Below are positions 1 through 4,081 of a DNA stretch of 63,590 bases, in pieces (within the stretch, counting starts at the first letter, position 1; each line of letters begins with the position of its first letter). The notes beneath the pieces are model-generated. The model worked only from the letters and a program-made list of their open reading frames with translations, did no database searches and was not told the origin of the DNA. Both the position numbers and the translations under genes were made by a program. The stretch spans positions 1-63,590 of the forward strand of contig JALHNZ010000015.1 of NCBI GenBank assembly GCA_022843265.1, read 5' to 3'. Source of the DNA: Gemmatimonadaceae bacterium (GTDB lineage: Bacteria > Gemmatimonadota > Gemmatimonadetes > Gemmatimonadales > Gemmatimonadaceae).

Positions 1-1678
1 TCGTTGCCGAGTCGCGTGTACCGCCGCTCAGCAACAACCCGACCGCTACTACCGTGAGCGCGCCAATCACGTTGTGCCACAGGAAACTGATGGACGGTGC
101 ACCAAACGACACGGCCGCTACTGTGGCCATGCCCGTGATCAATCCAACAAACGCACCGAGTGCTCGCGCGCGTGGGATCATGGCCAACAAGAACACGCCA
201 AGAATCGAGCCGTAGAAAAACGAGCCGAAACGGTTCACCACCTCGATCAACGAACCGAGGGTGGCTGCATACGTGGCCACAAAACACGCAAAAAGCCCCC
301 AAACCGCGGTGGAGATCTTCGACACCTTCAGGAAGTGCGCGTCGCTGCCCACGGGTTTGAACCACCGCTGATAGAAGTCCACGACGGTGGCGGTAGACAG
401 TGAATTCAATTCCGCCGCAATGCTCGACATCGCCGCCGCCAGTACGGCCGCGAGGAAGATGCCTGCAAGCCCCACCGGCAGGTGATCGAGCACGAAACGT
501 GGAATGATGTAGTTCACATCGCGCGAGGACTGTCCGGTCACGCTGGCGGCCTTCGCCAGTGCCTCCGTTCGAACCGCCGAGACGCTCGCCTCAGCTGAAC
601 GCACGGCGTCCAGGGCCACCGTCTCTGCAGCACCATCCTTCGCGCCGCGTGCGGTCACGACCTGCCGTGCGGCCGCTTCGCGTTCCGTGCCGGCAGCAAC
701 ATATCGCTGCTCAAGTGCCGCGTACTCTACCGGTGCGCTGGCCCGTACCTGCGATTCATGCGCCGGGTTGTACAGCAGCGGTGGCGACTGGAACATGTAA
801 AACAGGTACACAAGCACACCAACGAGCAGCACGAGCGCCTGCAGCGGAATCTTCCAGTACGCGCTCATGAGCAGCGAACTGCGCGCTTCGTCTACCGAGC
901 GCGCGGTGAGATAGCGCTGCACCTGACTCTGGTCGGTGCCAAAGTACGACAACATGAGGAACGTGCCGCCCAGCACGCCGCTCCAGAACGTGTACGTCTC
1001 GGTAAAGTTGAACGAGAAGTCGAACACCTGCAGACGCCCCGTCGCACCGGCTACACGCAGTGCGTCATCCAGCGGCACCGGCATGCGCAACAGGAGCACC
1101 ACCACGATCGCCGTGAGCGCACCAACAATCACCACCATCTGTTTTACGTCAGCCCAGGTAACCGCCTGCACGCCGCCGAGCACGGTGTAGAGCACCGTGG
1201 GCACACCGATGAGGGCAACAGACCAGGTGAGATCCCAGCCAAACACCGCCGAGAACACCACGGCCGGCGCGGCGATGATGGTGCCGCACGACATGCCGCG
1301 CGACATGAGGAAGAGAAAGCTGGTCAGCGAGCGTGTTTTGGCATCGAAGCGACGTTCGAGATACTCGTACGCCGTATAGACCTTGGCGCCGTGCAGAAAT
1401 GGCACGAGCGTCACGCCGAGGATCACCATCGCGAGCGGCAGTCCAAAGTAGAACTGCACAAAGCGCAGGCCGTCGGTCGCGCCCTGACCGGTGGTGCCGA
1501 TGAGTGTGACGGCTGACAGCTGCGTGGCCATGACCGACAATCCCACCGCCCACCACGGCAGGCTGCGATTGGCGAGGAAATAGCCTTCGATGTTGGTGGT
1601 GTTCTTCGTGCGCCGCAGCCCGTCCCACACCACGTACGTGATGTAGGTGATCAGAATGACCCAGTTGATCCAATGCAT
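1..1678 (-). CDS. Sodium:solute symporter (SSS family), 3' end off window
   Basis: This frame stays open from an ATG at 1678 to the left edge, giving about 559 residues, so only the extreme C-terminus is missing. The translation starts MHWINWVILITYITYVVWDG and continues as a run of hydrophobic helices. It contains the SSS-type core around SVMATQLSAVTLIGTTGQG (TM2 region) and LAAAMSSIAAELNSLST (TM8/9 region), which fits SGLT/SSF transporters. These move sugars, amino acids or organic acids with Na+ across the inner membrane. The substrate cannot be read from the sequence. An Ala/Glu-rich helical insert of roughly 70-80 residues lies between transmembrane segments, encoded at about 510-760. A stop codon sits 3 bases upstream of the ATG in frame, which fixes the start. 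The gene follows a 34-residue ORF with 3 bases between that stop and this start. Confidence 0.88.
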   Translation of the reverse strand, partial: MHWINWVILITYITYVVWDGLRRTKNTTNIEGYFLANRSLPWWAVGLSVMATQLSAVTLIGTTGQGATDGLRFVQFYFGLPLAMVILGVTLVPFLHGAKVYTAYEYLERRFDAKTRSLTSFLFLMSRGMSCGTIIAAPAVVFSAVFGWDLTWSVALIGVPTVLYTVLGGVQAVTWADVKQMVVIVGALTAIVVVLLLRMPVPLDDALRVAGATGRLQVFDFSFNFTETYTFWSGVLGGTFLMLSYFGTDQSQVQRYLTARSVDEARSSLLMSAYWKIPLQALVLLVGVLVYLFYMFQSPPLLYNPAHESQVRASAPVEYAALEQRYVAAGTEREAAARQVVTARGAKDGAAETVALDAVRSAEASVSAVRTEALAKAASVTGQSSRDVNYIIPRFVLDHLPVGLAGIFLAAVLAAAMSSIAAELNSLSTATVVDFYQRWFKPVGSDAHFLKVSKISTAVWGLFACFVATYAATLGSLIEVVNRFGSFFYGSILGVFLLAMIPRARALGAFVGLITGMATVAAVSFGAPSISFLWHNVIGALTVVAVGLLLSGGTRDSAT

Positions 1679-1681
1679 GGA

Positions 1682-1786
1682 CTAACCGGCGTAGCGAGAC
1701 TGGAGCGCCCAGAGCAACAGCAGGGCGATCACTTGCACGGTCATGACCTGGGCAAGTGTGCGTCGAAAGCGGGAGGGTTCGGACAT
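1682..1786 (-). CDS. 34-residue single-pass membrane protein upstream of symporter
   Basis: An ATG at 1786 opens a 34-codon frame ending in TAG at 1682-1684. The product begins MSEPSRFRRTLAQVM, continues with a hydrophobic stretch (VQVIALLLLWAL) and ends QSRYAG. A positively charged N-terminus followed by one helix predicts a single-span inner-membrane protein with its N-terminus inside. Its stop lies 3 bases before the symporter ATG, so translation is probably coupled. No strong Shine-Dalgarno is visible. Tiny hydrophobic subunits accompany several transporters (KdpF is one), so a role as an accessory peptide is an inference. It is too short for most gene callers. The evidence for its being real is its position, its codon use and its membrane-like composition. 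Confidence 0.6.
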   Translation of the reverse strand: MSEPSRFRRTLAQVMTVQVIALLLLWALQSRYAG

Positions 1787-1883
1787 GGGGAGAATGTATC
1801 GTCGGGGCCAGACCGGGCGCGATCGATTTTTCCCTGGCTTTTCAGGCAGATCGAGTGATGTGGCGCGGTGTCAAGGTCTGCCT

Positions 1884-1998
1884 GGTCAGAGGGTTTAGTA
1901 TGTTTCGGTCAGAAAGATTAGTTTGTTGCGGTCAGAAGGTATTGTATAAAGTGGTCAAAAGGTATAGTATATGCTGGTCAGGAGGCCTTGTCGTTACC
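1884..1998. repeat. 23-bp tandem direct repeat array, four clear copies plus one decayed
   Basis: Copies begin at 1884, 1907, 1930 and 1953, exactly 23 bases apart. A degenerate fifth starts at 1976. Every copy starts GGTCA, and most continue with a purine-rich GAAGG and then a TATAGTAT-like core. Copies 3 and 4 match at 18 of 23 positions. The array is markedly AT-rich compared with its surroundings. 23 is not a multiple of 3, so it is not a coding repeat. It lies 57 to 171 bases upstream of the DUF4143 ATPase start. Within it, TTGTTG (1923-1928), a 16-base spacer and TATAAA (1945-1950) could act as a sigma70-type promoter. Confidence 0.85.
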
Positions 1999-2054
1999 GA
2001 GAAGACGGCGTGGCTTGAAAGGGCGTTCCGTAGGCCGCCATGTGGAGACTTAAC

Positions 2055-3347
2055 ATGAAGGAATACAAGACGAGAGTGATTGACGCGGAGCTCGACGAGC
2101 TGCTGCAAAGCCTGCCCGCTCTCGCACTGGAGGGACCAAAGGGCGTAGGAAAGTCAGAGACGTGCCAGCGACGCGCACACACCACGTTCCGGTTGGACGA
2201 GTTGGCGCAGCGCGCGATCGCCGAGGCTGATCCAGCAAACGTGCTTACCGCGCCTCGACCGGTATTGATCGACGAGTGGCAGTACGTACCCGCGATCTGG
2301 GATGCCGTGCGTCGAGCGGTAGATGCCGACCACTCTGCGAACCAGTTCTTGCTTGCCGGTTCAGCGGCACCTGCCAATGCGCCGACACACAGCGGAGCGG
2401 CGCGAATCATTACCGTGCGAATGCGCCCGCTGAGCCTTGCCGAGCGCGAGGTGCCAACACCAACCGTGAGTCTCCAGTCGCTGTTGTTGGGCGAGCGCCC
2501 CGCAATTGCGGGTCAAACAGACATTGGACTGCGAGAGTACGCACATGAAATATGCCGCTCAGGATTTCCCGGCATTCGTCATCTGACGGGAAGGGCACTG
2601 CGGGCACAGCTTGACGGCTATCTGCAGCGCATTGTCGATCGTGATTTCGCGGAGCAAGGGTATGTTGTTCGTCGTCCGGATGCACTTCGGCGATGGCTCA
2701 CGGCGTTCGCGGCGGCCACCGCAACGTGCACGACATTCGAAAAAATCCGAGCCGCTGCTACAAGCGGTGAAGGCAACACGCCAACCAAGCCCACGAGCAA
2801 CAACTATCGAGCGATTCTTGAGCAACTCTGGATACTGGACTCGGTCCCAGGGTGGCTTCCGTCGCGCAATCAGCTTGCGCGGCTTACGCAGTCGCCGAAG
2901 CATCATTTAGCAGATCCGGCGCTGGCTGCGCGCTTACTCGGTGTCGATGAGCGTGCATTGCTCGAGGGCACAACGGCCGCGCAGGCGACTGCGAATGCCT
3001 CACCAACGCCGCGAGACGGCGCGCTCATGGGCCAGCTTTTTGAATCGCTCGTCACGCTTTCGGTTCGAGTCTACGCGCAGCACGCCGAAGCGCGAGTGCG
3101 CCACCTGCGTACGCGCGACGGACGACAAGAAATTGACCTGATCGTGGAGCGCGACGACCAGAAAGTGCTGGCAATCGAAGTGAAGCTGAGCGCGACCGTG
3201 ACGGATGCAGACGTCAAGCACCTGCTGTGGCTGCGTGACCAACTCGGTGCAGACGTGCTCGACCTTGTGATCATCACCACCGGAACACACTGCTATCGCC
3301 GCAAGGACGGCGTGGCGGTGATCCCGGCCGCGCTGCTGGGACCGTAG
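2055..3347 (+). CDS. AAA family ATPase with DUF4143 C-terminal domain
   Basis: The 430-residue protein has a P-loop GPKGVGKS near residue 30 and a Walker B-like VLIDEW near residue 75. Its C-terminal half ends in a PD-(D/E)XK-like fold typical of DUF4143, visible as EIDLIVERDDQ followed by LAIEVKLS. Proteins of this family are widespread, patchily distributed and of unknown substrate; some are suspected to act on DNA or in toxin-like or defence contexts. I chose the ATG at 2055 because GGAG lies 7 bases upstream; an ATG at 2040 would add five residues but lacks a ribosome site. The gene stands alone, between the repeat array and a convergent ABC operon. No partner antitoxin or nuclease is visible next to it. 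Confidence 0.88.
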   Translation: MKEYKTRVIDAELDELLQSLPALALEGPKGVGKSETCQRRAHTTFRLDELAQRAIAEADPANVLTAPRPVLIDEWQYVPAIWDAVRRAVDADHSANQFLLAGSAAPANAPTHSGAARIITVRMRPLSLAEREVPTPTVSLQSLLLGERPAIAGQTDIGLREYAHEICRSGFPGIRHLTGRALRAQLDGYLQRIVDRDFAEQGYVVRRPDALRRWLTAFAAATATCTTFEKIRAAATSGEGNTPTKPTSNNYRAILEQLWILDSVPGWLPSRNQLARLTQSPKHHLADPALAARLLGVDERALLEGTTAAQATANASPTPRDGALMGQLFESLVTLSVRVYAQHAEARVRHLRTRDGRQEIDLIVERDDQKVLAIEVKLSATVTDADVKHLLWLRDQLGADVLDLVIITTGTHCYRRKDGVAVIPAALLGP

Positions 3348-3370
3348 CCACCACGCGAACACGCTGGTTG

Positions 3371-4081
3371 TTAACTCGCCGCCAACGCGATCGTCGCCGC
3401 ATCCGCTACGCGCCCGTCGAACAGATGCACTTCGCGGTCCGCGTGCTGCGTATAGCGTGCATCGTGCGTGACCATGCAGATCGTGGCGCCGTTCTGATGC
3501 AGTTCCTGCAGTAGTCCCATGACCGCTTCGCCATTCTTGGAATCGAGATTTCCCGTGGGCTCGTCGGCGAGCAGAATGGCCGGATCGCCGGCGACCGCGC
3601 GCGCCACCGCCACACGCTGCTGCTGACCGCCAGAGAGCTGAGCAGGGAAATGTTTGGCGCGATGCGTCATGCCCACACGTTCCAGCGCCGACTGCACGCG
3701 GTCACGACGCTCACTCGCGGCCATGTCGCGGTACGTGAGTGGCAACTCCACATTCTCAAATACGGTGAGATCACCAATCAGATTGAATGCCTGAAAGATG
3801 AATCCGATTTGCTGATTACGAACACGCGCGCGATCCATGGGCGCGAGCCGTGCGACTGGCTGCCCATCAATAAAGTACTCGCCAGACGTTGGCGCATCGA
3901 GCAAGCCAAGAATGGAAAGCAAGGTGGTTTTTCCGCAGCCCGACGGACCGGAAATGGCCACGTACTCGCCGCGCTGAATTTCAAAGTGCACATCGGCGAG
4001 CGCATGCGTTTCGACTTCATCCGTATGAAACACTTTCCGGATGTTCTGCATCTGAATGAGCGGTGAAGCTTTGGCGGACAT
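3371..4081 (-). CDS. ABC transporter ATP-binding protein, LolD/MacB type
   Basis: This 236-residue ATPase has a Walker A (GPSGCGKTT, near residue 45), a signature motif (LSGGQQQR) and a Walker B followed by the typical extension (ILLADEPTGNLD), then a switch His in MVTHD. The LADEPTGNLD form is characteristic of the LolD/MacB/FtsE group. These drive MacB-type permeases, which do not pump substrate through the membrane but work mechanically on periplasmic substrates. It is the last gene of a three-gene unit behind a MacA-like adaptor and an ADOP permease, with 36 bases between the adaptor and this gene. Substrate is unknown; candidates are peptides, lipoproteins or antibiotics. Confidence 0.93.
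   Translation of the reverse strand: MSAKASPLIQMQNIRKVFHTDEVETHALADVHFEIQRGEYVAISGPSGCGKTTLLSILGLLDAPTSGEYFIDGQPVARLAPMDRARVRNQQIGFIFQAFNLIGDLTVFENVELPLTYRDMAASERRDRVQSALERVGMTHRAKHFPAQLSGGQQQRVAVARAVAGDPAILLADEPTGNLDSKNGEAVMGLLQELHQNGATICMVTHDARYTQHADREVHLFDGRVADAATIALAAS

Follow-up and report, generated by a model that had tools for sequence, protein, structure and literature searches.

An array of 23-bp direct repeats stands just upstream of a lone AAA_14-DUF4143 gene in the window, by which we mean the whole stretch of 63,590 nucleotides that was analysed, and the array and the gene are absent together from a congener. Relatives of this gene from several bacterial phyla, and from archaea as well, are preceded by matching arrays, and it is therefore probable that the repeats are docking sites for self-control. 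Across the family, the arrays hold an operator-like position in front of the start, their period follows the protein clade, and the sequence of their unit is co-inherited with the protein. Judging from these sequence comparisons, we consider it fairly probable that the array provides private docking sites for the product of its own gene, which would make it a self-operator for cooperative autoregulation.

The array and the gene that follows it

The features of the locus are listed below in the order of the forward strand.

1 to 1680, minus strand: flanking gene, running leftwards from 1680 and open to the window edge, which we take to be sodium:solute-symporter-like; aligned, bordering the empty site at one end
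1779 to 3413, no strand: segment made of the array and the gene, replaced in the congener G004 by unrelated sequence of about 117 bp; its limits are approximate owing to divergence of the intergenic flanks
1884 to 1906, plus strand: repeat copy 1, GGTCAGAGGGTTTAGTATGTTTC
1907 to 1929, plus strand: repeat copy 2, GGTCAGAAAGATTAGTTTGTTGC
1930 to 1952, plus strand: repeat copy 3, GGTCAGAAGGTATTGTATAAAGT
1953 to 1975, plus strand: repeat copy 4, GGTCAAAAGGTATAGTATATGCT
1976 to 1998, plus strand: decayed fifth copy, GGTCAGGAGGCCTTGTCGTTACC, whose left half, GGTCAGGAGG, is conserved by sequence reading
2055 to 3347, plus strand: AAA_14-DUF4143 gene, PADLOC PDC-S01, with an alternative start ATG at 2040; from Pfam, PADLOC and structure models
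3371 to 4081, minus strand: flanking gene, bordering the empty site at its opposite end, presumably an ABC-transporter ATP-binding gene

The four copies named in the original prediction are spaced by exactly 23 bp (starts at 1884, 1907, 1930 and 1953) and are 65-78% identical to copy 1. Their lag score at period 23 is 37, the maximum among 5000 Markov simulations of the intergenic sequence 1787-2054 being 18. No tandem signal in the 63.6-kb window is stronger, as 300-bp stretches away from the array score 27 at most. The label of a fifth decayed copy was also right, because 1976-1998 keeps the left half only, and the AT-rich island in GC-rich DNA is borne out by a GC content of 42.6% in 1884-1998 against 62.1% for the window. 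Repeats unlinked to the gene would have spoken against a module, and these were sought with a genome-wide search for the unit pattern that allowed up to 3 mismatches and took the reversed pattern as control. It returned 9 matches, the 4 array copies and 5 scattered ones, and the control gave 5 as well. This confirms that the array is real, and that it is found nowhere else in the genome beyond the control level.

The gene stands alone between the divergent symporter-like gene and the convergent ABC-transporter gene. Its product exceeds the curated Pfam cut-offs for AAA_14 (40.9 bits, cut-off 27) and DUF4143 (89.8 bits, cut-off 28.1), and it matches the PADLOC PDC-S01 profile over residues 1-428 (E 6.2e-79). 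In the AlphaFold2 model (pLDDT 91.7), residues 1-296, which comprise the AAA+ domain and a winged helix, have 2qen (Z 14.7) and 2fna (Z 13.7) as best structural matches, followed by NLR and CED-4 structures (RPP1, CED-4; VIA Z 12-13). The NOD plus winged-helix fold of a STAND-type AAA+ ATPase is thereby found, with 2qen, 2fna, RPP1 and CED-4 leading the list, and Foldseek with the same model also lists Cdc6/Orc1. The C-terminal domain was predicted separately, with an alignment drawn from window and genome loci only (pLDDT 91.9), and its matches are Card1, a Pyrococcus repair endonuclease, McrC, EndoMS, VRR_NUC and EcoRV, the best at E 0.005 and none below 0.001. Both D361, E375 and K377, which form a D...ExK motif, and the G and K residues of Walker A are invariant among the 22 sequences compared. 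From these structural matches and invariant residues, the product is modelled as a STAND-like AAA+ ATPase that has a winged helix and a C-terminal PD-(D/E)XK nuclease. These three parts take up the 430 residues, among which a repeat region that could form a separate sensor is not evident. The winged helix of STAND proteins can be structural only. PDC-S01 is reported to rank fourth in frequency among the defence-type genes of prokaryotes, with its function unvalidated (PMC12988326), and its anti-phage role is that of a candidate.

Distribution and inheritance of the arrays

The original prediction held that repeats upstream of related genes would speak for a module, and such repeats are present. 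Homologues from relatives, from Actinomycetota, from Chloroflexota and from one Thermoplasmatales archaeon have upstream arrays of their own. When scored against Markov shuffles, 110 of 202 distinct AAA_14-DUF4143 genes have significant upstream tandem repeats, in a sample that is uneven and non-random and to which two archaeal genomes contribute many paralogues; it covers Gemmatimonadota, Actinomycetota, Chloroflexota, Thermoplasmatota, plasmids and gut phage contigs, the phylum labels being those of the seed-locus records. The same test is positive for 1 of 202 stretches inside genes and for 8 of 139 downstream regions. A separate count, with a score of at least 18, found arrays at 46 of 103 genes and at 10 of 537 control windows taken from these loci, and period 23 at 26 genes compared with 1 control window. 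By the Markov-shuffle test, 92 of the 202 genes (about 45%) have no significant direct-repeat array, and an inverted pair, significant in 18 of these 92, explains this only in part.

Inverted arrangements were met at several loci. In the 32-34 bp clade, L112, L113 and L115 have long perfect or near-perfect inverted repeats upstream, such as TACGGCCTTATTTTCGC. The second DUF4143 gene of the Gemmatimonadaceae genome (L001, G000:C8, about 930-1970) appears to carry a frameshift, and in place of a direct array it has two ATATGGA...TCCATAT-like palindromes in front of it. Upstream repeats are also significant at 10 of 26 archaeal loci of the sister DUF234 ATPases (L250-L279), mostly with periods of 28-29 or 14-16 and often palindromic, so the array principle may be wider than DUF4143.

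The position of the arrays is that of an operator. Their 3' end lies at a median of -40 from the start in the 22-24 bp class and of -38 in the 32-34 bp class. By inspection, the array runs into TATA-like sequence at several archaeal loci, and on a Bacteroides plasmid it is followed by TATCTTTGC, which resembles a -7 box.

The periods fall into discrete classes, with 56 arrays at 22-24 bp, 12 at twice that value, 31 at 32-34 bp and 5 at 39-42 bp; a single array lies at 25-31 bp and none at 35-38 bp. The classes step by about 10 bp, which is about one helical turn. The array period follows the protein clade: the nearest neighbour in the protein tree has the same period class for 98.0% of 99 genes, as compared with a mean of 56.7% and a maximum of 74.7% in permutations that count related genes as independent. 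By inspection, sub-clades as a rule hold to either 22 or 24 bp.

The unit sequence is likewise co-inherited with the protein, and this across phyla. The more alike two proteins are, the more similar their units tend to be (Spearman 0.18, with a maximum of 0.084 in permutations that again count related genes as independent), and the mean unit similarity of cross-phylum pairs is 0.429 at a protein identity of at least 50% and 0.336 below 35%, column-shuffled units giving 0.326. The unit aTGgCGAaAtGGTAgcGTA of a Chlorobi plasmid, for example, is like those of Actinomycetota, Chloroflexota and Gemmatimonadota with GGTAgcGTA-like cores, and AAGCCAAACTGCCGAATAAT of Bacteroides is like the archaeal CTCCAAATGACCGAATAAT. 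At the Gemmatimonadota locus L010, the shared unit is inverted relative to the gene. Within the archaeal genomes G152 and G287, the units of paralogues are unlike one another (mean similarity 0.365 at a mean identity of 0.47). One G152 paralogue has a unit with 6 matches in that genome, all beside its own gene, with 0 for the control. A region-wise comparison singled out no protein region as determining specificity (partial r of 0.15 at most).

Two further observations concern the units. Both archaeal genomes, which belong to the Thermoplasmatota, hold 29 and 32 DUF4143 genes in about 1.4-1.5 Mb, many of them with a distinct array of their own. On a Rhizobium plasmid (L207), five TTAACATTTCGCCAT-like 23-bp copies lie upstream of 1980, and this unit nearly matches the Chlorobi one in reverse complement, although the proteins share only about 28% identity.

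The array and the gene are also present or absent together. In the congener G004, both flanking genes are adjacent with about 117 bp between them, and the array and the gene are absent together; a deletion in G004 may be the source of this difference. At L005, the segment that is present or absent relative to the congeners G021 and G047 (L287/L288) is 2.4 kb long; besides the array and the DUF4143 gene it contains a gene that we take to be DinB-like, so the mobile unit is not always the array and the gene alone. The window gene bears no compositional sign of recent arrival, because its GC content (61.6%) equals that of the window. The suggestion of a self-contained module holds, given the arrays of the homologues, the lack of unlinked copies in the genome above the control level and the joint absence in the congener; composition shows no sign of recent arrival.

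Proposed self-control and its alternatives

In the self-operator reading, the STAND-like product of the gene would bind the repeats, and several protomers would sit side by side on them in a fixed helical phase, 23 bp being about 2.2 turns and 33 bp about 3.1 turns. The protein docked at the promoter would then regulate its own gene, and the most likely outcome would be cooperative autorepression, by which a potentially harmful nuclease would be kept low and poised. The choice of repression over activation is a guess, because an unregulated nuclease is presumed to be costly. That the binder would be the gene's own product is suggested by the co-inheritance of unit and protein, the unlike units of paralogues and the lack of a constant partner gene. 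Since the gene is often alone, and also found on plasmids, no protein other than its product is certain to accompany the array. The clade-specific spacing, for its part, points to protein-protein contact between neighbouring protomers, and binding would be cooperative. Among the options originally proposed, the best survivor is that of an operator bank serving the ATPase itself.

The main rival of the self-operator is the reading in which the array is a working part of a defence system, as a scaffold or decoy that holds the STAND-like nuclease until it is freed or activated by an invader disturbing the array. The fold does resemble the oligomerising ATPases NLR and CED-4, the family is listed among defence candidates, and there are up to about 6 phased copies, whereas simple repression needs 1-2 sites. 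In addition, a Thermus DUF4143 gene rises 6.6-fold in the wild type when a plasmid is present (PMC4406477). The arrays, however, lie in an operator-like place, shortly before the start and adjoining the core promoter, and we regard this rival as unlikely. A bolder reading concerns the whole family, in which each AAA-nuclease would have its own orthogonal, helically phased DNA address, with the array as an integral scaffold on which the STAND-like nuclease would be assembled and held poised, and with a period (2, 3 or 4 turns) and sequence that would have diverged, allowing a single cell to harbour many paralogues. In this general form the idea is speculative and rather unlikely.

The helically phased direct repeats adjoining the gene, the AAA+/winged-helix similarity to Cdc6/Orc1, the presence or absence in congeners and the homologues on plasmids and phage contigs would all suit an iteron-like origin or the end of a mobile element, belonging to a small mobile element whose replication the ATPase would initiate or whose transposition it would serve. 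Against this, the insert in the window is a lone gene on a chromosomal contig, without any transposase or replication gene, downstream regions are near background, and no target-site duplication is evident at the L005 junctions relative to L287/L288. The iteron-like site of the original prediction is retained only as an analogy of architecture, and we deem an actual origin or element end improbable.

Any regulator could use a site at the promoter, including a different one encoded by the host. The unit, however, resembles those of same-clade homologues in other phyla and not those of paralogues in the same genome, and it is unused elsewhere in the two genomes tested. The unlike paralogue units and the G152 unit found beside its own gene only thus make a shared host regulator unlikely, and we give a host-encoded binder very little weight. 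Lastly, stacked sigma-70 promoters, proposed since TATAGTAT-like cores resemble -10 boxes and 6+17 coincides with the spacing of 23, are contradicted by sister clades at 22, 24 or 32-34 bp, by the arrays of archaea, by the reversed unit of L010 and by a scan of 1700-2100 in which no forward sigma-70-like site (-35/-10 hexamers, 16-18 spacing) was found, so that we reject them as highly improbable.

Meaning and relation to known systems

If the self-operator reading is right, a conserved private DNA site beside the abundant PDC-S01 gene would give a concrete handle on its control. The array provides binding assays with a defined substrate and studies of induction with a reporter, and it predicts that the specificities of paralogues are orthogonal. 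The family, with its 29 and 32 DUF4143 genes in the two archaeal genomes, would be a natural collection of matched protein-DNA pairs.

Our literature search, with most subscription papers and bioRxiv outside its reach, found no paper that describes these arrays. The closest known system is PDC-S01 itself, as the window protein is a member with the same two domains and in a single gene; the accessible parts of the published accounts describe the protein alone, as an ATPase fused to PD-(D/E)XK, and do not mention an upstream array. The archaeal AAA+ ATPases PABY2304 (2qen) and SSO1545 (2fna) share the AAA+ domain and the winged helix, but the match is limited to model residues 1-296 and the nuclease domain lies outside it. 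Plasmid iterons with their Rep proteins, and Cdc6/Orc1 with the ORB elements, likewise combine a DNA binder of the AAA+ or winged-helix kind with phased direct repeats next to its gene; here, in contrast, the protein has a nuclease domain, the period depends on the clade and the module shows no sign of a replicon. The C-boxes of restriction-modification systems and the operators of toxin-antitoxin systems likewise provide a nuclease or toxin module with an operator of its own at its own promoter. These modules use a small separate regulator or antitoxin, whereas here the ATPase-nuclease is the only gene, and it is preceded by about 3-6 phased direct repeats.
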